A DNA stretch of 57,109 bases from Phycisphaerae bacterium (GTDB lineage Bacteria; Planctomycetota; Phycisphaerae; Sedimentisphaerales; Anaerohalosphaeraceae): NCBI GenBank assembly GCA_012729675.1, contig JAAYCR010000064.1, positions 1 to 57,109 of the forward strand, read 5' to 3'. Every line of letters begins with the position of its first letter. Within the stretch, counting starts at the first letter, position 1. The position numbers and the translations under genes were made by a program. Positions 8,272 through 56,462 of the stretch are shown piece by piece. The notes beneath the pieces are model-generated. The model saw only the letters and a program-made list of their open reading frames with translations. It searched no databases and was not told the DNA's origin.

Positions 8272-9993
8272 ATGAGTACTAAACCACAAACCTCGCCCGA
8301 AGTCGGCACGGTCCACAAACCCGGCAGTCAAGTGATGGTCGATATGCTGGTCGAACAGGGCGTTGAAGTGATGTTCGGCTATCTGGGCGGCGTGGTGCTG
8401 CCGTTCTTTGATAAGCTGTATGACGCCCCGATCAAGTTTATTATCCCCCGGCACGAACAGGGCGGCTGTCACATGGCCGACGCCTATGCCCGCGCCACGG
8501 GCAAGGTGGGCGTGGTGGTTGCCACGTCCGGCCCCGGCGCGACCAATCTGACAACCGGGCTGGCGACGGCGATGATGGATTCGATCCCGCTGGTCGCGAT
8601 TACGGGGCAGGTGCGGACGGACTTGATCGGCAACGACGCTTTTCAGGAAGCCGACACGACCGGCATCACACGGCCGATTACCAAGCATAATGTGATCGTC
8701 AAAGACCCCAACCAACTGGCTCAGGCCATCCGTGAGGCGTTTTATATCGCCCAAACGGGCCGGCCGGGGCCGGTGCTGGTCGATGTGCCGGTGGACATAC
8801 AGTTTGCACAGTGCCCGATTCCGCCCAAGGGCGAGATTGAACTGCCCGGCTACAGAATCCGCCCGCAGGGACACGCCCGTCAGATCGAAATGGCGGCCGA
8901 GGCGATCAACGCCTCCAAGAAGCCGGTGCTGTATGCCGGCGGCGGGGTGATTATTTCCGGTGCCGCCGAGGTACTGTGTGCTCTGGCCCAAAAAGCCAAT
9001 ATCCCCGTGACGATGACGTTGATGGGGCTGGGGTCGTATGACCAGGCCCGTCCGGAATCGCTGGATATGCTCGGGATGCACGGCTCGGCGTACGCCAATT
9101 TCGCAGTGCAGAACTGTGATTTGCTGATCTCGGTCGGGGCGCGCTTTGACGACCGCGTCACCGGTGCGCTGAAGAACTTTGCCCCGTATGCCAAGATCGT
9201 CCATATTGATATGGACCCGGCCAGTATCTCCAAGAACGTGGCGGTGGATATTCCTGTCGTAGGCGACGCCCGGCTGGTGCTGGAGGCGATAATCGCTGAG
9301 GTCGAGTACCGGCCGCGCAAAGAATGGTTTGAACAGATCGCCGTCTGGAAGGCCAAGCATCCGTTGCGTTATGACCGCGACGCCGATGTCATCAAGCCCC
9401 AGTACGTCATTGAAGAGCTTTACCGACAGACGCACGGTGATGCGATTATCTGCACTGGCGTCGGCCAGCACCAGATGTGGTCGGCACAGTTCTATAAATA
9501 CAGCCGTCCGCGGCAGTTCATCACCTCCGGCGGACTGGGGACGATGGGCTTCGGGCTGCCGGCGGCGATTGGCGCTCAGTTGGCCTGCCCCGACCGGATG
9601 GTCATCGACATTGACGGGGACAGCAGCTTCAATATGACGCTGACGGAGCTTTCGACGGCGGTGATGTACGAGCTGCCGATCAAGGTCTGCCTGATCAACA
9701 ACGGCTTTATGGGCATGGTGCGTCAGTGGCAGGAGTTGTTCTACGGGCGGCGGTATTCGCAAAGTTCGTTGAAGAACCCGGATTTCGCCCGGCTGGCCGA
9801 GGCGTTCGGGGCGGTGGGCTTTACGGTGGACAAAAAAGACGATGTTCCCGCCGGGATTGAGCGGATGCTCAAGGAAACGCGTCCCGTCGTGGCCGATTTC
9901 CGCGTCGATCCGGAAGAGAACGTCTGGCCGATGGTGCCCACCGGCAAGAGCCTGCACGAAATGGACGGTTTGGATATTTTTGAAATGGCATAA
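8272..9993 (+). CDS. ilvB: Acetolactate synthase large subunit
   Basis: This thiamine-diphosphate enzyme condenses two pyruvates, or pyruvate and 2-oxobutyrate, in the first common step of Val, Leu and Ile synthesis. ATG at 8272 follows AGGAGAATAAG, giving 573 residues, the usual size. The catalytic glutamate is in RHEQGG near residue 60. The ThDP/Mg motif GDSSFNMTLTELSTA begins with GD near residue 450. FAD- and quinone-like binding regions typical of AHAS are present (VGARFDDRVTG). It is followed by ilvN on the same strand. Confidence 0.95.
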   Translation: MSTKPQTSPEVGTVHKPGSQVMVDMLVEQGVEVMFGYLGGVVLPFFDKLYDAPIKFIIPRHEQGGCHMADAYARATGKVGVVVATSGPGATNLTTGLATAMMDSIPLVAITGQVRTDLIGNDAFQEADTTGITRPITKHNVIVKDPNQLAQAIREAFYIAQTGRPGPVLVDVPVDIQFAQCPIPPKGEIELPGYRIRPQGHARQIEMAAEAINASKKPVLYAGGGVIISGAAEVLCALAQKANIPVTMTLMGLGSYDQARPESLDMLGMHGSAYANFAVQNCDLLISVGARFDDRVTGALKNFAPYAKIVHIDMDPASISKNVAVDIPVVGDARLVLEAIIAEVEYRPRKEWFEQIAVWKAKHPLRYDRDADVIKPQYVIEELYRQTHGDAIICTGVGQHQMWSAQFYKYSRPRQFITSGGLGTMGFGLPAAIGAQLACPDRMVIDIDGDSSFNMTLTELSTAVMYELPIKVCLINNGFMGMVRQWQELFYGRRYSQSSLKNPDFARLAEAFGAVGFTVDKKDDVPAGIERMLKETRPVVADFRVDPEENVWPMVPTGKSLHEMDGLDIFEMA

Positions 9994-10092
9994 GAAAAAA
10001 TCAAAGACCAAAAAGAAAAAAGAAAAAATCAGGAAGTCCGGTCTGAAAGGCCGTCCGCATTTTTGATTTTTAACTTTTGATATTTTATCTGG
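9994..10092. repeat. Heptad-word palindrome between ilvB and ilvN
   Basis: The left arm is made of A-rich 7-base words (AAAAATC, AAAGACC, AAAAAGA, AAAAAGA, AAAAATC) and the right arm of T-rich 7-base words (ATTTTTG, ATTTTTA, ACTTTTG). They form a long imperfect hairpin around a GC-rich loop. It belongs to the period-7 family seen at several other loci in the window. Confidence 0.6.
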
Positions 10093-19206: not shown

Positions 19207-21027
19207 ATGCAAAAACTGAATTATAGCCTGCTGTTTGTGTTGTGTTGCGCTGCGTTGTATCTTACCGGCTGCGGGCGGCGGGCGCCTAAGGCCGACGAAG
19301 ACCAGATGGTGCTGCATCTGTCGCTGCCGACCAAGGCCCAGACGCTGGACAGCGGCAATATGCGCGACGTGTATGGGATGATGGTTGCCGGGAATATTTA
19401 TGAGACCCTCTATAAATACCATTATTTGAAGCGGCCTTATGAAGTCATCCCGGTACTGGCCGCAGATTTTCCCACCATCAGCGACGACAATCTGACCTAC
19501 ACCATTCCGATTAGGCAGGGCGTGTTCTTTCAGGACGATCCGTGTTTTCCGGACGGTAAGGGGCGCGAGTTGACAGCGCACGATTTTGTGTTTGCGATCA
19601 AACGCATCGCCAACGTCAAATACCGAAGCCAGAACTGGACGATTTTCAAGGACAGGATTCTTGGCTTGGATGAGTTTCGTGAATACACAACGGATTTTAA
19701 AGAAGAGTGGGCGGTGGATTACAGCTATGAAGTCGAAGGGCTAAAGGCGCTGGACGATTATACGCTGCAGATCATACTGGTGCGTCCGTGGCCGCAAATG
19801 CTTGAAATAGCGCTTGGCGATACGGCGTCGTCGCCGCTGCCGCGAGAAGCGGTGGATTATTACCACAGTGAGATTGGCCATCGTCCGGTCGGAACCGGGC
19901 CGTATCGACTCAACGTCTGGCGGCGAGGCAGCTATATCGAACTGGTCCGCAACGAAAACTGGCGGGGCGAACTGTACCCATCCGAAGGCGAAGAAAGCGA
20001 TGCGGAGGCGGGGCTATTGGACGACGCCGGAAAACCCATCCCGTTTGCCGACCGTGTCATTTTTCGCGTCATTGAGGAAGCTCAACCGCAATGGCTGCTG
20101 TTTATGCGGGGCGAGTTGGATTCGTCGGGCATTCCGAAGGATAATTTTAACGAGGCAATCGATGCGAGCGTGCAGACACTGACCGATGACATGCGGGCGC
20201 GTAATATAGAACTGCATACGTATGTCGATCCGTCAACGTTTTGGGTGGGCTTTAATCTGCGCGATCCGGTGCTGGGCAAGAACAAGCCGCTGCGGATGGC
20301 CATCTCCCGCGCAATCAATCGTCAGGAGTTTATCGACCTGTTCGCCAACGGACGAGGAATGGTCGCTCACGGGTTTGTCTCGCCGGGGATGAATTCGTAT
20401 GACCCGGATATCCACACCTACGGCTTTTCCCGATATGATCCGGCCGAGGCCAGAGAATTGCTCAAAGAGGCCGAGGCGGTTCACGGCGGGCCGATTCCGC
20501 CTCTGACGCTGGGGATGCCGGGGACGGACACCTTTGCCCGTCAGTACGGCCAGTTTCTGCAGAAATATTTCAGCCAAGTCGGCATGAGGCTGGACGTCAA
20601 TTATATGGACTGGCCGACGTATCTGGCAGAGTTGAACAACGGGCACTTGCAATTGTTCTCCAGCGGCGTCAGCGCCAGTGTTCCGGATGCGATTGATTTT
20701 CTGGAGATGTTCGCGACAAAATATTTTGCGCCGGGCGGAAATAAGTTTTACTATTCCAATCCCGAATATGATACACTGCTGGACCGGGTTCAGGTGATGT
20801 TTGACAGCCCGGAGCGGACGGAATTGTACCGAAAAATGGAACGGATGGTGATGGCCGACTATCCGGCGGTGTTCACAACGCATCAAGTGTCGTATGCACT
20901 GACGCACGGGTGGTACAAGAATTATAAGCCGCACACCTTTTCGTATGATGTGCTCAAGTACCGGCGCGTCGATGGGGAACAACGCGGTGAATATCGAGAC
21001 GTGCTGGCGGAATTGAAAAAGAAATGA
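19207..21027 (+). CDS. Oligopeptide-binding lipoprotein (family 5)
   Basis: This 606-residue solute-binding protein has lipobox LYLTGC, a first lobe with the family 5 signature region (RPYEVIPVLAADFP) and a second lobe ending in the helical C-terminus. It is paralogous to the amber-interrupted gene immediately upstream but has no internal stop (SASVPDAIDF where the other has the TAG). It probably supplies, or now wholly supplies, peptide capture for the transporter. Its stop overlaps the permease start (ATGA). Confidence 0.92.
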   Translation: MQKLNYSLLFVLCCAALYLTGCGRRAPKADEDQMVLHLSLPTKAQTLDSGNMRDVYGMMVAGNIYETLYKYHYLKRPYEVIPVLAADFPTISDDNLTYTIPIRQGVFFQDDPCFPDGKGRELTAHDFVFAIKRIANVKYRSQNWTIFKDRILGLDEFREYTTDFKEEWAVDYSYEVEGLKALDDYTLQIILVRPWPQMLEIALGDTASSPLPREAVDYYHSEIGHRPVGTGPYRLNVWRRGSYIELVRNENWRGELYPSEGEESDAEAGLLDDAGKPIPFADRVIFRVIEEAQPQWLLFMRGELDSSGIPKDNFNEAIDASVQTLTDDMRARNIELHTYVDPSTFWVGFNLRDPVLGKNKPLRMAISRAINRQEFIDLFANGRGMVAHGFVSPGMNSYDPDIHTYGFSRYDPAEARELLKEAEAVHGGPIPPLTLGMPGTDTFARQYGQFLQKYFSQVGMRLDVNYMDWPTYLAELNNGHLQLFSSGVSASVPDAIDFLEMFATKYFAPGGNKFYYSNPEYDTLLDRVQVMFDSPERTELYRKMERMVMADYPAVFTTHQVSYALTHGWYKNYKPHTFSYDVLKYRRVDGEQRGEYRDVLAELKKK

Positions 21028-21977
21028 CAGCCTTTATCATTAGACGATTGCTTTATACGGTCCCGATTGTGGTCGGTGTGCTGCTGGTGACGTTTGTGCT
21101 GTTCACGCTCGTCGGCGGGGACATCTCCTACCAGATCGCCGGGCGTGACGCTGACGCCGAGACGATTGCCGAGATTCGCCGCGAGTACGGCTTTGACAAG
21201 CCCCGGTTCATCGGCGAGGCGGGCGAACGCCTCAACAGCCAGTTTTTTGACCACTTCAAGAATGCCCTGACGTTTGATTTCGGCTATGACCTTAACCGTG
21301 AAAAGATTACCGAACGCATCTGGCGGGGCGTCGGGCCGTCGCTGGCGCTGACGGTACCGATGTTTATCGGAACGCTGGTCATCTCGATTAGTCTGTCCCT
21401 GTTCGTAGCGTTTGTGCGGGGATCGATCTGGGATGTGACGCTGGTGGTCATCTGCGTGGCGGGGATGAGCATTCCCTACCTGAGTTTTATCATCTTCGGG
21501 CAGTATTTTTTCGCCTATCAACTGGATTGGTTCCCGATCTTTTTTGTGCCGGATCAATCTATCTGGGTCAGCGTCGCGCTGCCGGTGTTGATCGGGATTG
21601 CCGCCGGGCTGGGCAACAGCCTGCGGTTTTACCGCACGGTGATGCTCGACGAGATGCGGTGCGACTATGTCCGCACGGCCTTTGCCAAGGGGCTATCGAC
21701 CCGCACGGTCTTGTTCAAGCACGTCCTCAAAAACGCGATGATCCCGATCTTGACCAACGTCGTGCTGTCGATTCCGTATCTGATCCTCGGCTCGCTGCTG
21801 CTGGAGCGGTTCTTCGGTATACCGGGGCTGGGCGATATGATGATTCAGGCGATCAACGCCCGCGACTTCTTCGTCCTCAACGCCATGACGTTTATGATGT
21901 CGCTGCTGATCGTCGTCTTTACCCTGCTGACCGATATCTGTTATGCGTGGGTCGATCCAAGAGTGTCTCTGGAGTAA
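21024..21977 (+). CDS. Oligopeptide ABC transporter permease, OppB/DppB type
   Basis: The 317-residue product has six predicted membrane segments. The cytoplasmic EAA loop is recognisable as EMRCDYVRTAFAKGLSTRTV, which contacts the ATPases. An N-terminal helix precedes a periplasmic loop, as in DppB. It overlaps the binding-protein gene by four bases. The partner permease normally follows directly, but here 431 bases with a four-helix-bundle gene intervene. Confidence 0.92.
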   Translation: MTAFIIRRLLYTVPIVVGVLLVTFVLFTLVGGDISYQIAGRDADAETIAEIRREYGFDKPRFIGEAGERLNSQFFDHFKNALTFDFGYDLNREKITERIWRGVGPSLALTVPMFIGTLVISISLSLFVAFVRGSIWDVTLVVICVAGMSIPYLSFIIFGQYFFAYQLDWFPIFFVPDQSIWVSVALPVLIGIAAGLGNSLRFYRTVMLDEMRCDYVRTAFAKGLSTRTVLFKHVLKNAMIPILTNVVLSIPYLILGSLLLERFFGIPGLGDMMIQAINARDFFVLNAMTFMMSLLIVVFTLLTDICYAWVDPRVSLE

Positions 21978-21985
21978 ATCCGGAA

Positions 21986-22404
21986 TTGACGATGGACGAT
22001 GGACGATGGACGATTGACGAAGGTATAAAATGGACAACAAAGAACTGAAAAAGCGAACCAAACAGTTTGCGTTAAGATGTATAAAGTTGAGCAATGCTCT
22101 GCCTGATACGTCGCTGGGACGACATGTCAAAGGGCAAATCGTCCGTTCTTCAACGTCGGTTGCGGCGAATTACCGAGCGGCCTGTCTGGCTCAGTCAAAG
22201 CCCGGTTTTGTTGCAAAATTAAGCATTGTTGTCGAAGAAGTCGATGAAACGTTGTTCTGGCTCGAAATAATTATTGAAGAGAAGTTGTTACCCAAGAGAA
22301 AGGTTGAGTCGCTGATGCAGGAAGCGAATGAATTAACTGCGATTTTTATCAGCGCGCGCAAAACCGCCAGAAATAATCGTCCATCGTCCATCGTCAATCG
22401 TCAA
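21986..22404. mobile_element. Heptad-flanked element carrying an S23 gene
   Basis: Five 7-base words (TTGACGA, TGGACGA x3, TTGACGA; 21986-22020) open the element. Four words in inverted orientation (TCGTCCA x2, TCGTCAA x2; 22377-22404) close it. Between them is one gene for a four-helix-bundle protein. The unit separates two permease genes that are normally adjacent, and the right array is read as the C-terminal codons of the gene. This is the pattern of an insertion with inverted termini. No transposase is encoded. Confidence 0.6.
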
Positions 22405-22437
22405 TCGGATGAATATGCTCATGCAAATGTCCAATAA
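22030..22437 (+). CDS. Four-helix-bundle protein, S23/IVP family
   Basis: The 135-residue product carries the S23 signature: LSNALPDTSLGRHVKGQIVRSSTSVAANYRAA, then KLSIVVEEVDETLFWLEIIIE. The family was first found in intervening sequences of 23S rRNA genes and includes Avd, the accessory protein of diversity-generating retroelements, which forms a basic pentameric ring that binds reverse transcriptase. Here the last 20 residues (from NRPSS) are encoded by the flanking heptad array and host sequence, so the native C-terminus probably lies near 22376. It lies inside an ABC transporter operon, which points to insertion rather than a transport role. Confidence 0.85.
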   Translation: MDNKELKKRTKQFALRCIKLSNALPDTSLGRHVKGQIVRSSTSVAANYRAACLAQSKPGFVAKLSIVVEEVDETLFWLEIIIEEKLLPKRKVESLMQEANELTAIFISARKTARNNRPSSIVNRQSDEYAHANVQ

Positions 22438-23392
22438 TACATCAGCCAAGCCCGCAAAGGGTCGCAGCCTCTGGGCGGACGGCATTCGTCGTCTGCGCAA
22501 GCGGCGGCTGGCGATGCTGTGCTTTTGGGTGACGATGGCGTACTTTGCCCTGGCGGCGGCGGTGTTTATCTCCGAGAGAACCGGCTGGGAAAACGTCCTG
22601 ACGCGCTGGAACGAAGACATCGGCCCGTCGTATCAGGCCCCGCTGGCGACGTATGAATGGACGCCGCAGGACGCCGAGCCGATGTCGGGCTGGTCGCTGT
22701 TCGGGACGGATTTTTTGGGCCGCTCGACCCTGCGCAAGACGCTCTACGGGGCCAAAACCTCCATCGCCGTGGCGCTGGGGGCCTCGATCATCAGCCTGCT
22801 GATCGGCATTCCGCTGGGTGCGGCGGCGGGGTATTTCCGCGGCTGGTTTGACGATATTGTGATTTGGCTGCTGACGACACTGAACACAATTCCCTATATC
22901 CTGCTGGTGATGGCGTTTGCGGTCGTTCTCCGGGACAAGTCACTGCTTGGGATTCCTCTGCGCGGGATGACGGGGGTGTATCTGGCGATGGGGTTGACCA
23001 GTTGGGTCGGCATCGCACGCCTCATCCGCGGCGAGATTATGAAACGCAAGGAAAGCGAGTATGTGCTAGCGGCCCGAGCGATGGGCTGCTCATCCGGGCG
23101 GATCATCTTTTTCCATCTCCTGCCGAACGTGTTCCATATCATCATCATTAACTTTTCGCTGCGGTTTGTCGGCTTTATCCATGCCGAGGTGATATTGAGC
23201 TTTCTCGGCCTGGGCGAGACGGACAAGCCCAGTTGGGGCGCGATGATCGACGCGGCCCGCGCCGAGCTGGCGCGGGATGTCTGGTGGGAGATGGCCGCGG
23301 CCACACTGGCGATCTTTGTCCTGTCGCTGGCCTTGAACCTGTTCGGCGACGCCCTGCGCGACTGCCTCGACCCGAAGCTGAGAACGGACTAA
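22409..23392 (+). CDS. Oligopeptide ABC transporter permease, OppC/DppC type
   Basis: This is the second permease of the heterodimeric channel, 327 residues. It has an N-terminal membrane helix, a periplasmic insertion with the FGTDFLGRS motif diagnostic of DppC/OppC, and an EAA loop near EYVLAARAMGCSSGRI. Four ATGs lie close together at the start (22409-22426); none has a strong ribosome-binding site, perhaps because the S23 element replaced the original upstream sequence. The coding start overlaps the end of the S23 frame. Confidence 0.9.
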   Translation: MNMLMQMSNNTSAKPAKGRSLWADGIRRLRKRRLAMLCFWVTMAYFALAAAVFISERTGWENVLTRWNEDIGPSYQAPLATYEWTPQDAEPMSGWSLFGTDFLGRSTLRKTLYGAKTSIAVALGASIISLLIGIPLGAAAGYFRGWFDDIVIWLLTTLNTIPYILLVMAFAVVLRDKSLLGIPLRGMTGVYLAMGLTSWVGIARLIRGEIMKRKESEYVLAARAMGCSSGRIIFFHLLPNVFHIIIINFSLRFVGFIHAEVILSFLGLGETDKPSWGAMIDAARAELARDVWWEMAAATLAIFVLSLALNLFGDALRDCLDPKLRTD

Positions 23393-23418
23393 ATTGTTTG
23401 CTGGAACTTTTTTTTATT

Positions 23419-23537
23419 AATTCGAAGCACGAAATCCGAAATACGAAACAAATACAAATGACAAAAATGGTTTGAAACATTTAGATTTCTGAAATTGGAA
23501 TTTGTTTCGAATTTCGATATTCGGATTTCGATATTTA
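23419..23537. repeat. Heptad-word palindrome, CGAAATC type
   Basis: The left arm has CGAAGCA, CGAAATC, CGAAATA and CGAAACA; the right arm has TCGAATT, TCGATAT, TCGGATT and TCGATAT, all in 7-base steps, with a pairing inner section around AAATG and CATTT. The same element type recurs in the phage part at 56318-56462, including related inner sequence. It separates the OppC and OppD genes. Confidence 0.75.
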
Positions 23538-23539
23538 AA

Positions 23540-24535
23540 ATGATGAAACAAGATAATGGCAATTTGTTGTCGATCCGGAAGCTCTCGACGCACTTCTTCA
23601 CCGAGCAGGGAGTTGTCAAGTCCGTGCAGGACGTCAGCTTCGACCTGCACGCCGGCAAGACGCTGGCGGTCGTCGGCGAAAGCGGCTGCGGCAAGAGCGT
23701 TACGGCACTGTCGGTGATGCGGCTGATCCCTTGGCCGCCGGGCAAGATCGTCGAAGGCGACATCCTGCTCAACGGAAAATCGCTGCTGAGGCTGTCCGAA
23801 GGCCGGATGCGGCAGATTCGCGGCAACGACATCGCGATGATCTTTCAGGAGCCGATGACCAGCCTCAACCCCGTCTTTACCGTCGGCAATCAGATTACCG
23901 AGGCGATTGTCCTGCATCGCAAGGTCAGCGTCCGCCAGGCACGGCAGCAGGCGATTGAAATGATGCGCAAAGTGGGCATCGCCGACCCGCATCGCCGCAT
24001 CGACGAATACCCGCACCAGATGAGCGGCGGCATGCGCCAGCGCGTGATGATCGCGATGGCATTGAGCTGCTCGCCCAAGCTGCTGATCGCCGACGAGCCG
24101 ACGACGGCGCTGGATGTGACCATCCAGGCCCAGATCCTCGAACTGCTGCGGCAGTTGCAGGCCGACGTCGGGATGAGCATCCTGCTGATTACGCACGATC
24201 TGGGCGTCGTCGCCGAAAACGCCGACGATGTGGTGGTGATGTATGCGTCCCGGATTGTGGAGTCCGCCGCCGTTCGGCCGCTGTTTGAAAAGCCGCTGCA
24301 TCCTTATACGCAGGGGCTGCTGCGGTCGCTGCCGATGCTGGGCGAGCGCAAAGAGCGGCTCGACGTCATCGGCGGGGCAGTGCCCAGCCCGCTACAGTTC
24401 CCGTCCGGCTGCAAGTTTCATCCGCGCTGCCCGGTCGGCAAAGACGACCGCCGCTGCCAAACCGTTGAGCCGCCGCTCAAGGAAGTCAGCCCCGGCCGCT
24501 GCGCCGCCTGCTGGTATGCGGAAGGATACGAATAA
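23540..24535 (+). CDS. Oligopeptide ABC transporter ATPase, OppD/DppD type
   Basis: This ATP-binding subunit (about 331 aa) has Walker A GESGCGKS, the signature MSGGMRQR, Walker [13 protein letters not shown] and the C-terminal oligopeptide-transporter extension with cysteine-containing CKFHPRCPV, which in some relatives binds an iron-sulphur cluster. ATG 23540 is chosen; the open frame extends 15 codons further upstream, but only through palindromic repeat sequence. No clear Shine-Dalgarno is seen. Confidence 0.93.
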
Positions 24536-24604
24536 TGTGAAATGTGAGATGTAAAATGTTAAATGTTTTTTTACATTTGACTTTTAACATTTAACATCTG
24601 TTCT
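24536..24604. repeat. Heptad-word palindrome, TGTGAAA type
   Basis: TGTGAAA, TGTGAGA, TGTAAAA, TGTTAAA and TGTTTTT are followed by TTACATT, TGACTTT, TAACATT and TAACATC, which pair back on the left arm. It fills the gap between the two ATPase genes. Confidence 0.7.
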
Positions 24605-31886: not shown

Positions 31887-32399
31887 ATGGAATTTGAAAC
31901 CAAGCAAAAAATCGCTGACATTGAGCGGATGACGGCCGGGCAGATGCGGGACACCTATGCCGAGGTCTTTGGCGAGCCAACCCGGTCTGGCAACCGTCAA
32001 TGGATGTTCCGGCGGATTGCCTGGCGTCTGCAATCGCTGGATGAGGGCGGACTCTCGGAGCGTGCCTTGCGACGGGCACGGGAACTGGCGCGGGAGCAGG
32101 ACATTCGGGTCATTCCGCCGGCGAATTTGACGATGGCCCCGGCCGATTCGGTGGATGTGACCCTGCCGGTGCCGGATTTTATCAAAATCAACCGCGACCC
32201 GCGGCTGCCGTTCCCCGGTACGGTACTGTCCCGCAAATACAAGGGGCATCTGTACCAAGTCACGGTCTTACCCAACGGCTTTGAACATGATGGCCAGGTC
32301 TATCGCAGCCTCTCGGCCGTTGCCCGTGCCATTACAGGAAGCGGATGGAATGGCTATCTATTCTTCAATCTAACCGAACCCGGAAAGGTCAATGAATGA
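31887..32399 (+). CDS. DUF2924 protein, recombinase partner
   Basis: The DUF2924 signature is clear: IERMTAGQMRDTYAEVFGEP followed by TRSGNRQWMFRRIAWRLQ. Members are nearly always encoded directly before a large serine recombinase in prophages and integrative elements; their role is unknown. The stop overlaps the recombinase ATG (ATGA). ATG 31887 is chosen; an upstream GTG at 31872 is possible. Confidence 0.85.
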   Translation: MEFETKQKIADIERMTAGQMRDTYAEVFGEPTRSGNRQWMFRRIAWRLQSLDEGGLSERALRRARELAREQDIRVIPPANLTMAPADSVDVTLPVPDFIKINRDPRLPFPGTVLSRKYKGHLYQVTVLPNGFEHDGQVYRSLSAVARAITGSGWNGYLFFNLTEPGKVNE

Positions 32400-33925
32400 T
32401 TCAAGCTGCCCCCAAAACCATACGCTGTGCCATCTACACACGCAAAAGCACCGAAGAGAACCTTGGGCTGGATTACAACACGCTGGATGCCCAGCGGGAT
32501 GCGTGTGAAGCGTATATTAAAAGCCAAAAGTCGCTGGGATGGGTGTGCCTGCCGGACCAATATGACGATGGCGGCTACACGGGTGGCAACATGGACCGCC
32601 CGGCGTTCCAGCAATTGATGGCCGACGTCGAGGACGGGAAGATTGACTGTATTGCCATCTATAAAATAGATCGACTGAGTCGTTCCCTCATGGATTTTGC
32701 ACAAATCATGGAAGTTTTGGAACGCAAAAAGGTCTCGCTGGTTTCGGTGACACAACAGTTCAATACCACAACCTCGATGGGGCGGTTGACCTTAAACATT
32801 CTGCTGTCATTTGCTCAATTTGAGCGCGAGATTATTTCCGAACGCACACGAGACAAAATCGCCGCATCCCGACGTAAAGGAAAATGGACCGGGGGACATC
32901 AGGTGTTGGGCTACGACTTGCAGCAAAAGCCGGGCGGCAATTGTCTGCTGGTAAACCAGGAAGAATCATATCAGGTCCAGCAGATATTTAAGCTCTATCT
33001 GGAAAGCGGTTCAATTATGGACACCCTTCGAGCTTTGCGTGAAAAGGGAATCATGACCAAGCAGTATTCTACGAAAACCGGAAATTCTCGTGGAGGAGCG
33101 CCTTTTGATAAAACGACCCTGCATAGGACACTGACGAATGTGACCTATTTGGGTAAAGTCCGGCACAAGGATCAGGTTTACGAGGGCGAGCATGAGGCGA
33201 TTATTGATGCCGACACTTTCCATCAAGTTCAGGGTATGCTCAAGAGAAACCTGCGTTCCGGCGGCAAATATTCAAGCAATAAATACAATGCACTGCTCAA
33301 GGGATTGGTCCGCTGTAAACATTGCGGAAGTGCGATGATACACCATTTTGTGCAGAAGCCCAACAAGCGGTATCGTTACTATGTTTGTTTGAAAGCGCAA
33401 AAACAAGGGTGGGATACCTGTCCCAGTCCTGCATTGCCTGCGGCGGAATTGGAGCAGTTCATTGTCGACCAAATCAAGGTTATCGGAAAAGACCTTGCTG
33501 TCTTGGAGGACTGTATCAAAAAAACGCAGGCCCACATGCAGGAACAAATTGAGCGATTGAAAGACGCCCGTAGTGAAAAACAGAAGCTTATACAGGAATT
33601 GAGTCAGCAGATTGGAGAGGCGGCCGCACAGGTTGGATTTGACGGGACGGCGGCCGGTCGGATAGAGCTGTGTCAGCAACAAATCAAAGATATCCAGGTA
33701 GAAATGGCATCGCTAAATTCGGAAATCGTTTCGATTCAGCGGCAGATGCTCAATCCGGACGAACTGGTGGGCAACCTGGAATCCTTCGAACCGCTCTGGG
33801 ACGCCATGCGTCCCAGACAAAAAGAAAAGCTGATTCATTTACTCATCAAACAGATTGAATGGGATAGCGAGACGGACAACATCTTCATCGCTTTCCATCA
33901 GACCAACATTGAGGTTTTAAATTAA
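32396..33925 (+). CDS. Large serine recombinase (integrase)
   Basis: This is the site-specific recombinase that integrates and excises the phage. The catalytic resolvase domain starts with IYTRKSTEEN (nucleophile Ser18) and includes YKIDRLSRSL and FEREIISERTRDKI. It is followed by the recombinase domain (VLGYDL...LHRTLTNVTYLGKV), a zinc ribbon with CKHCGS and a coiled-coil C-terminus of about 130 residues, which controls synapsis direction in this class. At 509 residues the length is typical. Confidence 0.95.
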   Translation: MIQAAPKTIRCAIYTRKSTEENLGLDYNTLDAQRDACEAYIKSQKSLGWVCLPDQYDDGGYTGGNMDRPAFQQLMADVEDGKIDCIAIYKIDRLSRSLMDFAQIMEVLERKKVSLVSVTQQFNTTTSMGRLTLNILLSFAQFEREIISERTRDKIAASRRKGKWTGGHQVLGYDLQQKPGGNCLLVNQEESYQVQQIFKLYLESGSIMDTLRALREKGIMTKQYSTKTGNSRGGAPFDKTTLHRTLTNVTYLGKVRHKDQVYEGEHEAIIDADTFHQVQGMLKRNLRSGGKYSSNKYNALLKGLVRCKHCGSAMIHHFVQKPNKRYRYYVCLKAQKQGWDTCPSPALPAAELEQFIVDQIKVIGKDLAVLEDCIKKTQAHMQEQIERLKDARSEKQKLIQELSQQIGEAAAQVGFDGTAAGRIELCQQQIKDIQVEMASLNSEIVSIQRQMLNPDELVGNLESFEPLWDAMRPRQKEKLIHLLIKQIEWDSETDNIFIAFHQTNIEVLN

Positions 33926-33941: not shown

Positions 33942-34337
33942 ATGGAGATAACCAAAGGCATCAAGGTTCATTTTACGCACGCCAACCGCGGCCGAAAACA
34001 GATTAAGGCCGGTCCGGCACCTGTTGTCGATACCCCAGAGGGTAGGGTTCCTCGTCTTTCGCGGTTGATGGCCCTGGCCATCCATTTCGACAACCTGATC
34101 CGGCAAGGCGGGATATGTAACCAAGCGGATTTGGCTCAGTTGGGTCACGTCAGCCGGGCACGGGTGACCCAGATCATGAACCTCTTATATTTGGCTCCGG
34201 ACATTCAGGAGCACATTCTATTTCTGCCGCCTGTGACCGAGGGACGCGACCCAGTTCCGGAGACGAAACTGCGGAAACTTGTCAAAGAGACCTGCTGGGA
34301 AAAGCAGCGTCAAATGTGGGAGAGGATATCACAATGA
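33942..34337 (+). CDS. HTH protein downstream of the recombinase
   Basis: The 131-residue protein has an HTH segment, QADLAQLGHVSRARVTQIMN, around residues 65-85. GGAGG precedes ATG. Similar proteins often follow DUF2924 and serine recombinase genes. It could be a recombination directionality factor or a local regulator; context suggests one of these and the sequence does not decide. It converges on the reverse-transcriptase gene with a nine-base overlap. Confidence 0.7.
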   Translation: MEITKGIKVHFTHANRGRKQIKAGPAPVVDTPEGRVPRLSRLMALAIHFDNLIRQGGICNQADLAQLGHVSRARVTQIMNLLYLAPDIQEHILFLPPVTEGRDPVPETKLRKLVKETCWEKQRQMWERISQ

Positions 34338-35291
34338 AGTTTTCTGTGGAGACTTATTCCTTTCATAGAGGATCCATTCAAGGTGCCTCCACTTAACTTT
34401 TCTATAGAGCGACAACAGCTTAAGACCCTCTGGACGGTCCAGCCACATAACAAATCCTATACGACCTCGGTATTGATTTCTCGTGTCAAAGTCACCAGAG
34501 ATATCTCTGTGTTGGCTTTGCTGTATTGCTTTTAGTAATTCTCCGCGTAATGTTTTTATATAATCAGTGGAGGCAGACACTTTCCCATTCTGGACTCGAA
34601 CGCCACAAATAATGCGTTCCTTCCCATCACCAGGTGCATACACATCTATTTTACTTTGCTTGACTTTGAAGCCGTTTTGGCGAATGATCTCAATTACCAA
34701 GTCAGTAAATTGCTCAACAGGATAGCTCCCTGAGATGGTAATATCATCAACATAGCGTGTGTATTTGAGACCGGCTTTTGCAGCCATTCCGCATATTCGT
34801 TTGTCAAGAGGTTGAATGACCTGATCTGCTAACATTGGACTTGTTGACGTACCAAGTGGCAATGAATATTTTCTTGTTGTAAGCAATGTCAAAATCCTGG
34901 AAACATCAGGCGCACATTCCTGCCCCATAAAAAAATCATATATCTTCTGATAACGTACACTTGGATAAAAGGATTTCACATCAAACTTCGCAATGAATAA
35001 TGAGTTTGAATGTTTTTTTGCATTATCAAGGATACTGCGCCCCTTGATTGCCCCATACGCGTAATCAGAAATAGGAAGTCGATGCAATATTCGATCAAGA
35101 ATTCGGCGTTGAAGCATTGCCAAGGGGTTAATGCTCATGACTAGATCGCGATCTTTTCCCTTAACATTACGTTTAAAATCACGATAATACCTTTCAGTAT
35201 TTTCTGCTACATCAATGAGACCGTTTTCGTGAATACCGAGCTGATTGGCTAAATGTGGTATGGTTCTTATGCGAAGAGTTTTACAATTCAT
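34329..35291 (-). CDS. Retron-type reverse transcriptase
   Basis: All RT motifs are visible: IAKFDVKSFYPS (motif A), LPLGTSTSPMLADQVIQPLD (motif B), TRYVDDITISG (motif C with the catalytic YVDD), GFKVKQSKID (motif D) and RIICGVRVQNGKV, in the place of the VTGLVVN segment of retron enzymes. The N-terminal part (RYYRDFK...LQRRILDRILHRL) and the C-terminal thumb also align by eye with Ec86-type retron RTs. ATG 35291, just after the XRE stop, gives 320 residues; in-frame ATGs at 35315 and 35348 would overlap the XRE gene. Retron RTs make msDNA from a structured RNA and act in anti-phage defence. No maturase or endonuclease domain is present. Confidence 0.88.
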   Translation of the reverse strand: MNCKTLRIRTIPHLANQLGIHENGLIDVAENTERYYRDFKRNVKGKDRDLVMSINPLAMLQRRILDRILHRLPISDYAYGAIKGRSILDNAKKHSNSLFIAKFDVKSFYPSVRYQKIYDFFMGQECAPDVSRILTLLTTRKYSLPLGTSTSPMLADQVIQPLDKRICGMAAKAGLKYTRYVDDITISGSYPVEQFTDLVIEIIRQNGFKVKQSKIDVYAPGDGKERIICGVRVQNGKVSASTDYIKTLRGELLKAIQQSQHRDISGDFDTRNQYRGRIGFVMWLDRPEGLKLLSLYRKVKWRHLEWILYERNKSPQKTSL

Positions 35292-35301
35292 CGCTTGGAG
35301 A

Positions 35302-35610
35302 TTACTTGATTCCATTACTCTCTGCAATTCGATTCTTTTGCAATTCATGCATTAGCTCTTGAAGATGCTTATAAATAGCATCTACTTCAGGTTTATCAGA
35401 CTTGAAATCAACAGTTCCTTCAACCAATAGAAAGCTGATCGGAACATTAAATTCTTCTGAAATTTTCTTAAGCAAACTTAAACTTGGCTCTGACTTATTG
35501 TTTTCTAACAACGACAGATAATTCTGTGAAACGCCAAGTTTCTTGGCCATTTCACCTTGTCTTAAGTTTGCCGCGACCCTTACAAATTTAATGCTTTTTC
35601 CTATATTCAC
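35302..35610 (-). CDS. XRE-family HTH regulator of the retron locus
   Basis: The N-terminal Cro/C1 HTH (EMAKKLGVSQNYLSLLENNK) is followed by a region that specifies dimerisation (SFLLVEGTVDF) and a helical tail of about 40 residues. GTG 35610 is preferred because GGTGG lies five bases upstream; GTG 35619 is the alternative. It lies between a 79-residue gene and the RT gene. HTH proteins are accessory components of some retron types and could be effector-controlling or regulatory. The palindrome at 36208 is a candidate binding site. Confidence 0.85.
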   Translation of the reverse strand: MNIGKSIKFVRVAANLRQGEMAKKLGVSQNYLSLLENNKSEPSLSLLKKISEEFNVPISFLLVEGTVDFKSDKPEVDAIYKHLQELMHELQKNRIAESNGIK

Positions 35611-35648
35611 GGTATCCACCGATTTAACTCAGAGTTTTGGAAGTTCTA

Positions 35649-42013: not shown

Positions 42014-44056
42014 ATGACGATACCCCCCAATGACATTCTGCAAGAAGCTATACACTATGCCCAACAGGGCTTGCCGGTCTTTCCCTGTGAGGTTGACAGC
42101 AAAGCGCCGTTGACCCGAAACGGGTTCAAGGATGCTTCTGTAAACATCGAGCACATCAAGTGCTGGTGGGCCAACCATCCGACGGCAAATATCGGAATGC
42201 CCACCGGGGCAACATCACACCTTATCGTGATGGACATTGACCCGCGCCACGGCGGCGACCATGCCCTGCAGGGGCTGCTCGACCATTACGGCCCGTTGCC
42301 TGATACGCTGACGGCCATCACCGGTGGTGGCGGCACACATTATTATTTCCGCTATCCCGGCCATTTTGTCAAGTGCAGCATGGGAAAAATCGGCCCCGGC
42401 ATCGATATCAAAGGCGATGGCGGGTACGTCATCATCCCGCCCAGCGGGCATGAAAGCGGCAGCAACTATTACTGGGATGGTGAGTTTGACTTGGAAACTG
42501 TCGCCGACATCCCGGAATGGCTGTTGAGCCTCATTCATGCCGACAACACCTCAATCGCCCCGGAGGCCGAGTCCACCGAAAATTCGATTCCCCAAGGTCA
42601 GCGCAACAATACCCTGGCCTCGCTGGCCGGCACCATGCGCCGAGTCGGGATGTCGTATGATGAGATTTTGGCCGCCATCCTGAAAGTCAACGAGAATCGC
42701 TGCCAGCCACCGCTTGCAGAGAGCGAGGTCTGCCAAATCTCCCGCAGCGTCTGTCGCTACGAACCGGATACCGTAGCGGTAGCTGTCGCTGAAAACCACT
42801 ATGACCAAATGTTCAGCCCTGAACCTGGGATTGCTGATCCGGGGCCGATTCCAGAAACGCTATTGCACGTTCCCGGATTTGTCCAGAAAGTCATGGCGTA
42901 TAATCTGGACAACGCCATCCGCCCGCAGCCGGTACTGGCCTTGGCCGGAGCCATTCAGTTGCAGGCTGTTCTGGCCGCCCGCAAGGTTTGCGATGCGCGG
43001 GAGAACCGAACCAATCTGTATGTCATCGGAGTTGCCGGTTCCGGTGCGGGCAAGGAGTTTGCCCGAAAAATCAATCGGCGGATTCTCAATACGGCCGGGC
43101 TGAATCATCTTGACGGGCACGACGAGTTGGCCAGCGATGCCGGACTCGTCAAGGCCATCGAGAATAACCCTGCCATTTTGTTTCAGATTGACGAGTTTGG
43201 GCGGTATCTGCGGACGATGGGCGACCCCAAACGGGCACCGCACCTGTACAACGTCATCACCGCCTTTATGAAACTGTTCAGCTGTGCCGACAGTACCTAC
43301 AAAGGAAAAGCGTATGCCGACCCCAAACGGAATGTGGAAATCCATCACCCCTGCGTCGGACTGTATGCGACCACCGTACCGGACAATCTGTATCAGGGTA
43401 TCACACTGGAAAGCCTCAAAGATGGCTTTTATGCCCGATTGCTGCTGTTTGAAACCGACCACTTCCCCTCGCGACAACAAAAGGCGGCCGCCAAAGTGCC
43501 GCAGGAGGTTCTTGATATTGCCAAGTGGTGGGACGCATTCAATCCGACAGGAAATCTGCATGACCAATTCCCCGAGCCTGTTGAAATTCCAACCCTGCCC
43601 GCAGCACGGGATATCTTTGATGATTTGGCCGCTCGGGTAGATGATGAGCTGGCTAAGAAAAATCTCTATTCATCTATCTGGGCACGCGTTGAGGAAAAAG
43701 CCTGCCGGTTAGCCCTTATCTATGCCTGCAGCGCCAATCGGGAATGTCCGGTCATTGATGAAGCCGCTACTCAATGGGCCTGTCAATTGTCCGAGCATAT
43801 CACCCGCAAGATGATCTTTATTGCCGACCAGTGGGTCTCGGATGGATATTTTGATGAAAAGCAGAAAAAAGTGTTGCGCGTTATCAGGGATGCAGGTGGG
43901 CGCATTTCGCAATCATATCTCGGGGAAAAAACTCGGTCGCTTCAAAAGAAAGAGAGAGCTGAAATTATTGATAATCTCGAGGAGACTGGGGCCATAAAAA
44001 AAGAGCTGGTTAAGAATACCACCAAGACCGTGACCTACTATGTCCTTTTACAATAA
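42014..44056 (+). CDS. Primase-polymerase with DUF3987 domain
   Basis: The N-terminal prim-pol domain (about 1-170) shows FPCEVDSKAPLTRNGFKDAS, the catalytic VMDIDPRHGG and GGGGTHYYFRYPG. A primase C-terminal helical region follows (EILAAILKVNENRCQPPLAE). The DUF3987 ATPase-like domain has VIGVAGSGAGKE near residue 340 and FQIDEFGRYL. This is the phage's replication-initiating primase/helicase-like protein. Its stop lies inside the first of the 9-base repeats of the origin-like region. Confidence 0.9.
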   Translation: MTIPPNDILQEAIHYAQQGLPVFPCEVDSKAPLTRNGFKDASVNIEHIKCWWANHPTANIGMPTGATSHLIVMDIDPRHGGDHALQGLLDHYGPLPDTLTAITGGGGTHYYFRYPGHFVKCSMGKIGPGIDIKGDGGYVIIPPSGHESGSNYYWDGEFDLETVADIPEWLLSLIHADNTSIAPEAESTENSIPQGQRNNTLASLAGTMRRVGMSYDEILAAILKVNENRCQPPLAESEVCQISRSVCRYEPDTVAVAVAENHYDQMFSPEPGIADPGPIPETLLHVPGFVQKVMAYNLDNAIRPQPVLALAGAIQLQAVLAARKVCDARENRTNLYVIGVAGSGAGKEFARKINRRILNTAGLNHLDGHDELASDAGLVKAIENNPAILFQIDEFGRYLRTMGDPKRAPHLYNVITAFMKLFSCADSTYKGKAYADPKRNVEIHHPCVGLYATTVPDNLYQGITLESLKDGFYARLLLFETDHFPSRQQKAAAKVPQEVLDIAKWWDAFNPTGNLHDQFPEPVEIPTLPAARDIFDDLAARVDDELAKKNLYSSIWARVEEKACRLALIYACSANRECPVIDEAATQWACQLSEHITRKMIFIADQWVSDGYFDEKQKKVLRVIRDAGGRISQSYLGEKTRSLQKKERAEIIDNLEETGAIKKELVKNTTKTVTYYVLLQ

Positions 44057-44222
44057 TCGTAATAATCGTAATAATCGCATAGGTATTTATATAAGAAGGT
44101 CCCCCTATATCTACATGAATAAAATATATATACATATATTACGATTATTACGATTATTTCATAAATATATTAAATATAATAACTTACAGAACTCTCTTCT
44201 CTACGAATATTCGGAATATTCG
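44052..44222. other. Origin-like iteron region
   Basis: Three direct copies of AATAATCG(T/C) (44052-44078) face two inverted copies, ACGATTATT (44141-44158), across about 60 very AT-rich bases. Two tandem GAATATTCG words follow at 44205-44222. Iterons flanking an AT-rich unwinding region next to the prim-pol gene are what a phage replication origin would look like. No gene is seen from 44057 to 44381. Confidence 0.5.
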
Positions 44223-44381
44223 GAGCTTTATGGTTCCTTCCGGCGCAATAAAAGAGGTGACTCCGACGGGAACAATCACCTTGTTATACACACGTTATTT
44301 TTCGCGGCGCAGAAACTGAAAACCCAAAGAAACAGCGTTTTTCGCATAAAGACGCACTTTTACAGAAAGGATACACGATGC

Positions 44382-55977: not shown

Positions 55978-56315
55978 CCAACCTCTTAAACAATGGCCTT
56001 AACTGGCTGGAGCAGAAGCTCCTGGGCTTCTGCTCCAGTCCGGTCCAGTATCGGCGGGATAACCAAACTGTAACCGTTAACGCCGTCTTCGGCAAAACCG
56101 ACTATGAGGTGGACAATGAGTCTGGTCTGCGTGTTGGCAGTTTTGTGTGGGATTTTCTGATCGATGCTGAGGCATTGGCCATGACGCCGGAAGTCGGTGA
56201 CATTGTGGTGGTTAATGAAAAGCCGTTTGAAGTGATGGCTCTCTCCGGCCAGGGCTGCTGGCGCTGGACGGGACCGAACCAAAAAACCTATCGCATCCAC
56301 ACCAGGCAAGTATAA
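55974..56315 (+). CDS. Head-tail joining-like protein
   Basis: The 113-residue product contains VRDY-like beta strands (VNAVFGKTDYEVDNESGLRV) and ends CWRWTGPNQKTYRIHTRQV. Size, beta content and place after DUF2190 suit a head-completion or head-tail connector protein. No strong family motif is visible. Confidence 0.55.
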   Translation: MTNLLNNGLNWLEQKLLGFCSSPVQYRRDNQTVTVNAVFGKTDYEVDNESGLRVGSFVWDFLIDAEALAMTPEVGDIVVVNEKPFEVMALSGQGCWRWTGPNQKTYRIHTRQV

Positions 56316-56317
56316 AT

Positions 56318-56462
56318 CCGAAATTCGAAGCGCGAAATCCGAAACAAATTCAAAATCCAAATGACCCAATATCAAAACAGGGACTCCTGGTCGTTTTGAA
56401 CATTTGGAATTCTGTCATTGGATATTGTTTCGTATTTCGATATTCGTGCTTCGTATTTACTT
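56318..56462. repeat. Heptad-word palindrome in the phage, CGAAATC type
   Basis: Left arm CGAAATT, CGAAGCG, CGAAATC, CGAAACA; right arm TTCGTAT, TTCGATA, TTCGTGC, TTCGTAT, with an inner section (CAAATGACCC ... TGTCATTGG) related to the host copy at 23419. One family thus occurs in both host operon and phage genes. Confidence 0.75.

Follow-up and report, generated by a model that had tools for sequence, protein, structure and literature searches.

Inverted heptad arrays around an S23 gene between oppB and oppC: a probable small mobile element related to rRNA IVSs

S23 proteins are common and their structures have been solved (2006-2007), while a function for them has been lacking, and both the origin of the rRNA intervening sequences (IVSs) and the source of bacterial heptamer repeats were previously unexplained. 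Cyanobacterial STRR are heptanucleotide repeats of this kind. In Coxiella, the rRNA IVS holds an S23 ORF, has a 28-bp terminal stem and is excised by RNase III; GACAGAT heptamers stand upstream of the S23 ATG in a copy number that varies between strains, the S23 protein is probably not expressed there, and a mobile origin of the IVS had already been proposed by older authors (PMC4990558). 23S_rRNA_IVP (S23) ORFs also occur in rRNA insertions of CPR (PMC11270868), and PF05635 resembles Avd (PMC10053308). TAACTGA heptamer arrays have been described in Beggiatoaceae, cyanobacteria and Bacteroidetes, without a source, and were proposed to be translational regulators (PMC4679880). None of the papers we found links S23 genes in general to inverted arrays of heptads, in a search that left subscription journals and preprints mostly outside.

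The DNA analysed here, a stretch of 57,109 nt (the window), carries an S23 gene that lies not in rRNA but between oppB and oppC, in a host operon of the dipeptide/oligopeptide ABC type (SBP, OppB-like, S23, OppC-like). The insert and its host genes are laid out as follows.

21024..21977, + strand: OppB-like permease, the left host gene; its TAA abuts the element
21978..21987, + strand: outer edge of the element, ATCCGG beside the left array, with CGGAT as its mirror at the right end
21988..22022, + strand: left array, five heptads GACGATG/T, period 7
22030..22437, + strand: S23 / four-helix-bundle gene (PF05635, TIGR02436), 135 aa, assigned by profiles and a structure model
22375..22407, - strand: right array, the same heptad inverted (AATCGTC/CATCGTC), four words and a partial one
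22409..23392, + strand: OppC-like permease, the right host gene; its ATG comes right after the element

The left array consists of three GACGATG heptads, one GACGATT and one GACGAAG, and the arms (21985-22015 and 22375-22405, 31 nt each with 359 nt between them) are 97% complementary. A 26-nt array pattern with up to three mismatches matched three times in the window, compared with 0.00 times in shuffles. In the congener G003 the outer edges of the element read CCGG...CCGG. The C-terminal tail of the S23 protein (NNRPSSIVNRQS..., about 20 aa) is the translated right array, and its stop codon falls 29 nt within oppC. A sequence-only reading of this DNA had described five left words and four inverted right words around one S23 gene, with the right array translated as the protein's tail, and had held that oppB and oppC normally touch. 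The arrays and the ORF at 22030-22437 agree with this description. In the congener G001, which lacks the S23 insert, oppB and oppC touch, stop codon against start codon (TAAATG), and elsewhere in the family and the order the two genes lie -5 to 89 nt apart without S23.

The protein belongs to the four-helix S23 proteins both by the curated cut-offs of PF05635 (56.0 bits, cut-off 33.8, E 5e-15) and TIGR02436 (80.1 bits, cut-off 24, E 1e-22) and by its 2RLD/2GSC fold. It is modelled as a four-helix bundle (pLDDT 90) whose best PDB matches are 2RLD and 2GSC, with five chains each, followed by Avd (4DWL), and the model reaches a TM of about 0.68 both to 4DWL and to Avd in the DGR RNP 8UB7. S23 has no recombinase fold, and phage records gave no S23 match. 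Within the family of the window protein, dN/dS values of 0.05-0.22 indicate purifying selection, so the protein matters while it lasts.

Comparison with congeners bears directly on mobility. The opp site is occupied in the window genome (G000) and in G003, where the insert has the same word in a different unit order, and other relatives with an opp operon carry no S23 between oppB and oppC. Since the empty opp site of G001 has no array either, arms and gene came together. G001 has a relative of this S23, 84% identical in aa and with the same word, at an unrelated site flanked by gspE- and gspF-like genes, and DNA similarity between the opp and gspEF copies is confined to window positions 21988-22405, that is, from array to array. 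G003 has S23 copies at both the opp and the gspEF sites. In G002, the S23 gene at the gspEF site is more distant (57%) and its word is different. At the site of a further element of the window genome, L006, the element has decayed to a remnant in G003, and G002 has a short spacer there with no such remnant. As judged from these alignments, array, gene and array form a unit that has moved between sites within the genus. The orthologous opp operons without insert that the sequence-only reading had called for thus exist (G001), so that the insert is not fixed in all relatives. No clear target duplication, for which it had proposed a check, was found: none longer than 2 bp was seen at the opp site, where there is at most an AT at both junctions, as compared with TAAATG in G001.

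An autoregulated host gene would not need mobility at all. A resident RNA-binding S23 might use the 5' array as its own regulatory site and the 3' array as the partner of a terminator or attenuator, and the position of the left array (median 17.5 nt upstream of an in-frame ATG, G-rich in the S23 sense), the purifying selection on S23 and the operon location would all suit such a gene. However, the presence/absence polymorphism at the opp site contradicts it, and the decayed copy at another G003 site, the copies at unrelated sites and the gene-less derivatives across genomes argue in the same direction, which makes autoregulation very unlikely as the explanation.

The arrangement around the window S23 gene proved to be general. 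The window genome (2.80 Mb, 96 contigs) has 11 PF05635 genes, ten of them between inverted arrays of period 7 or 8; at the remaining gene, L003, a small heptad palindrome stands on the left and there is none on the right. In a matrix of each left flank against each inverted right flank, own pairs scored 39-68 in 10 of the 11 genes and mismatched pairs at most 28. Every one of these genes has a different word: GACGATG, AAGAACTC, TAGTTCG, CAGTTAN, AAATGTN, AAATTTG, AAAAGGN, ATTGATT and others. The comparison was widened to 175 S23 loci from the window genome, 40 relatives and 77 named genomes (Planctomycetota, Acidobacteriota, Nitrospirota, Chloroflexota, Bacteroidota, Proteobacteria, CPR and one archaeon), with the two flanks counted as matching inverted repeats at a score of at least 28. 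Own flanks matched at 121 of these loci (69%). For mismatched pairs the figure was 2.3%, and random intervals gave 0.7% in the window and 0-0.9% in three genomes. S23 genes thus do not generally lack such arrays, which the sequence-only reading had named as a refutation. Period 7 is dominant in the arms, with periods 8, 9 and 10 found as well, and the period of the left arm agrees with that of the right. Five cyanobacterial plasmid loci were examined and likewise have S23 in inverted arrays, with the plasmid S23 genes of Nostoc, Trichormus and Calothrix inside inverted heptads. None of 18 S23 loci tested with Rfam was located in rRNA.

Among 160 clearly scored loci, 39 (about a quarter) are without matching arrays, although in 27 of the 39 one flank or both carry a periodic array. 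The array-less genes do not form one domesticated subfamily (nearest-neighbour concordance 0.68, 0.63 expected). Some elements depart from the usual dimensions: at L119 and L146 the S23 gene sits within very long arrays (over 130-200 nt per side, words GGACGGT and TCGGTGAG) rather than the usual 30-40 nt. The Bacteroidales elements L078, L081, L082, L083 and L086 have periods of 9-10 nt, a GAAGTTA/GGAGTTA core and variable spacers, and may help in defining the recognised core.

Both the rules of the word and its association with the protein emerged from the elements with arms. The match was no lower after the unit order of one arm had been permuted (mean z 0.09, n=61); the arms therefore share words and not unit order, and a strict mirror or perfect-palindrome model is wrong. 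A single universal core motif also failed, at 2.89 bits compared with 2.69 (max 2.81) for letter-shuffled words; what was left is a polarity of G over C, the arms being G-rich in the S23 sense (2395 G, 1059 C; 92 of 117 loci, p 3e-10). The number of units at period 7 has a median of 4.3-4.6 with a wide spread, and periods 9-10 have too few, so that the idea of exactly five array units per pentamer is suggestive but falls short of being established. Across 120 elements with arms, the word is common to 65% of the protein pairs with at least 70% identity and to at most 1% of those below 50%, and it is shared almost only in the same strand sense (opposite strand, 3%). Sharing extended to 10 of the 19 pairs with at least 70% identity at sites without homologous outer flanks, and related words track related proteins, as with CGAAATN and CTAAATN in the group of L188, L199, L201 and L202. 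The word travels with the S23 protein and is kept while unit order changes.

Slippage in A+T-rich intergenic DNA could in principle place inverted arrays by chance, since in many bacterial genomes no long tandem period is more frequent than the heptad (PMC4679880). With mismatched flanks and random intervals at 0-2.3% against 69%, and with G-rich polarity relative to the gene (p 3e-10), we give this explanation practically no credence.

Arrays of the same kind also occur in the window without an S23 gene between them; strand is given where one applies.

9985..10092: gene-less inverted arrays, ATCAAAA-like, matching the S23 elements L182 and L185
13615..13660, + strand: lone array CTAAGCA/CTAAACA, matching the genome's own S23 element L009
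23418..23545: gene-less palindrome with CGAAATN arrays, about 90% identical over 49 nt to the S23 element L195 at its left end
24530..24602: gene-less palindrome with the word AAATGTN, matching the genome's own S23 element L006
56308..56462: gene-less palindrome with CGAAATN arrays, matching the S23 element L188 at both ends, with a short loop in place of the gene

For two of these, 23418-23545 and 56308-56462, the match is to the ends of S23 elements in relatives and extends over 49-65 nt, including the non-periodic AAACAAATNCNAATGACAAAA part. In 1.33 Mb of the window genome there are 186 period-7 arrays, compared with none in a local shuffle. Of the 167 arrays away from S23, 109 are explained by the S23 words of the genome itself, whereas ten random foreign words explain a mean of 21.5 (max 45; 500 draws) and ten words from relatives a mean of 43.8 (max 84). 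Short hairpins with GACGATK arms recur in this genome as well. The view that gene-less palindromes are internally deleted derivatives of S23 elements is well supported by these alignments and counts, and the earlier suggestion that the short palindromes are the same family without cargo fits both the end matches and the 109 of 167 arrays.

Array load also varies with S23 content. There are 100 arrays per Mb in the window genome (11 S23 genes) and 35 in G026 (8 S23 genes), and none in 400 kb of G009, which has no S23, or in 100 kb of E. coli K-12. Across 39 relatives, genomes with more S23 genes also have higher counts of three heptad words (rho 0.64, p 1e-5, kinship ignored), with a median of 1.5 per Mb in S23-free genomes and 12.6 in the others, although such correlations are open to confounding by phylogeny, A+T content and draft assemblies. 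The sequence-only proposal that S23 could be a mobility or maintenance factor is supported by this trend and by the co-travel of word and protein, which are both correlations.

The abundance of arrays invites the opposite order of events, in which the heptad palindromes would form a repeat class of their own, mobile or born of slippage and moved by other enzymes, and S23 would be a passenger, entering arrays of the same word by recombination. The arrays do far outnumber S23 (186 in 1.33 Mb against 11 genes per genome), one inverted pair, between lemA and htpX, holds a non-S23 gene, and S23 lacks a recombinase fold. However, the empty G001 opp site is without an array, 8 of 9 gene-sized inverted pairs in a sampled genome contain S23, S23-free genomes have few arrays and the word tracks the lineage of the S23 protein, and we regard arrays coming first as unlikely.

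Several other repeats were observed. The lemA-htpX locus (L264, G000:C26, 14467-15233) has inverted TAGTTTTGAGT arrays around a 164-aa membrane/TPR-like gene and is either the only gene-sized non-S23 cargo in the sampled inverted pairs or two unrelated arrays. Window positions 44052-44224 contain 9-nt tandem repeats (AATAATCGT, inverted TATTACGAT, GAATATTCG) with no gene inside, and look like another inverted array pair, of period 9. A dispersed repeat of about 83 nt, unrelated to the heptads, is found at L009:3188-3272 and in many places of the window genome; in G026:C1 it occurs over 20 times among the matches listed, most of them at 2.98-3.65 Mb, a part of the chromosome.

S23 elements mostly follow the sense of the transcripts in which they lie. 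In co-directional gene pairs, with neighbours scored by longest open frame, 69 elements are sense and 6 antisense (p 1e-14), and for elements with clear arms the counts are 48 and 5. The arms are predicted to form the terminal stem of the folded element RNA (z -6.7), and a simple consensus scan of the element found no convincing promoter.

This bias also weighs on a DNA route, in which an unlinked hairpin-recognising HUH or DDE transposase would move the element with S23 as an accessory DNA-binding factor. Inverted termini, MITE-like gene-less derivatives and the possible AT at both opp junctions are what such transposition might leave. Against it stand the sense bias in operons, termini that vary freely between lineages, unlike transposase sites, and the genome's own Y1 (RAYT-like) transposases, whose flanking repeats are different and GC-rich, or which have no heptad-bearing repeats; on balance the DNA route seems rather unlikely. 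A link of S23 elements to RAYTs was rejected, as RAYT repeats differ and no RAYT of this genome is flanked by the same palindromes. The RAYT-type gene at L056 (G000:C60, 982-1842) has around it several copies of GC-rich REP-like palindromes, which form another family, unrelated to the heptad palindromes.

No RT lies beside the window S23 gene, nor do the template and variable repeats that stand by Avd in a DGR. The association with Avd and an RT drawn in the sequence-only reading holds for the fold and goes no further. The window genome has two other RTs and one retron-like RT, none of them with a link to the S23 elements. The retron-like RT, at 34329-35348 (- strand), has RT_VI as its best PADLOC match (2e-63) and lies directly downstream of an Xre-type HTH gene (35302-35619, - strand), with a serine recombinase (32396-33925) nearby; the RT and Xre gene are probably a type VI retron on an integrated element.

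We consider it likely that a small mobile element, related to the rRNA IVSs but intergenic, has left one of its copies in the opp operon, with the hairpin as its mobile form and the Avd-like S23 protein as a word-specific factor. Such an element consists of an S23 gene inside inverted tandem arrays of a 7-nt word (8-10 nt in other copies), inserted in sense between operon genes, and the rRNA IVS would be built on the same kind of unit. Each element lineage has its own word in both arms, staying with the protein during movement, and gene-less palindromes are internal deletions that spread or persist alongside. Lacking an obvious promoter, the element would be read from the host operon. Pairing of its arms may then give a long hairpin that RNase III would probably cleave, as it does in the rRNA IVS, so that the host message would tolerate the element. 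The S23 ring, a pentamer in solved relatives, may bind the periodic word and act in trans on the hairpin RNA or its cDNA, perhaps with an RT supplied in trans as for its fold relative Avd.

A bolder version, which we put forward as tentative and on the doubtful side, is that of a recombinase-free, RNA-borne class of elements across bacteria and at one archaeal locus, in which a ring-forming S23 reads the word at one unit per subunit. Word and protein would co-diverge, so that each genome would hold many mutually insulated lineages with their own gene-less followers, and rRNA IVSs and cyanobacterial STRR would be members or relics.

The reading of the insert as a mobile S23 element ties orphan S23 genes, rRNA IVSs and heptamer repeats together as one element family, with the rule that each S23 lineage has its own word. 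It offers a reason why S23 genes are scattered and expendable, yet under purifying selection. A freely drifting word with a matched protein and repeats would be a new natural system in which to study how a protein and its nucleic-acid target diverge together, and many independent protein-word pairs are available for decoding.

Among known systems, rRNA IVSs are the closest described relatives, and S23 elements are placed beside them. Like the IVSs of 23S/16S rRNA genes in Leptospira, Coxiella and CPR, the opp insert has an S23 ORF in complementary termini, in the sense of the host transcript and over about 430 nt, with heptameric repeats next to the S23 start. Unlike them, elements of the window type are intergenic in protein operons, occur many to a genome, and have element-specific words in both arms as well as gene-less derivatives. 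The TAACTGA and STRR heptamers share period 7, an intergenic position near start codons and several words per genome, but in the papers we found they had not been tied to S23 or to inverted pairs. As with Avd of diversity-generating retroelements, S23 has the four-helix fold, in this case without an adjacent RT, template repeat or variable repeat. REPIN/RAYT systems and MITEs resemble S23 elements in combining dispersed gene-less palindromes with rarer gene-bearing relatives. In contrast to those systems and to IS elements, S23 is the only gene inside, with no encoded or linked transposase, and the word differs between elements. The termini are conserved within a lineage and variable between lineages.
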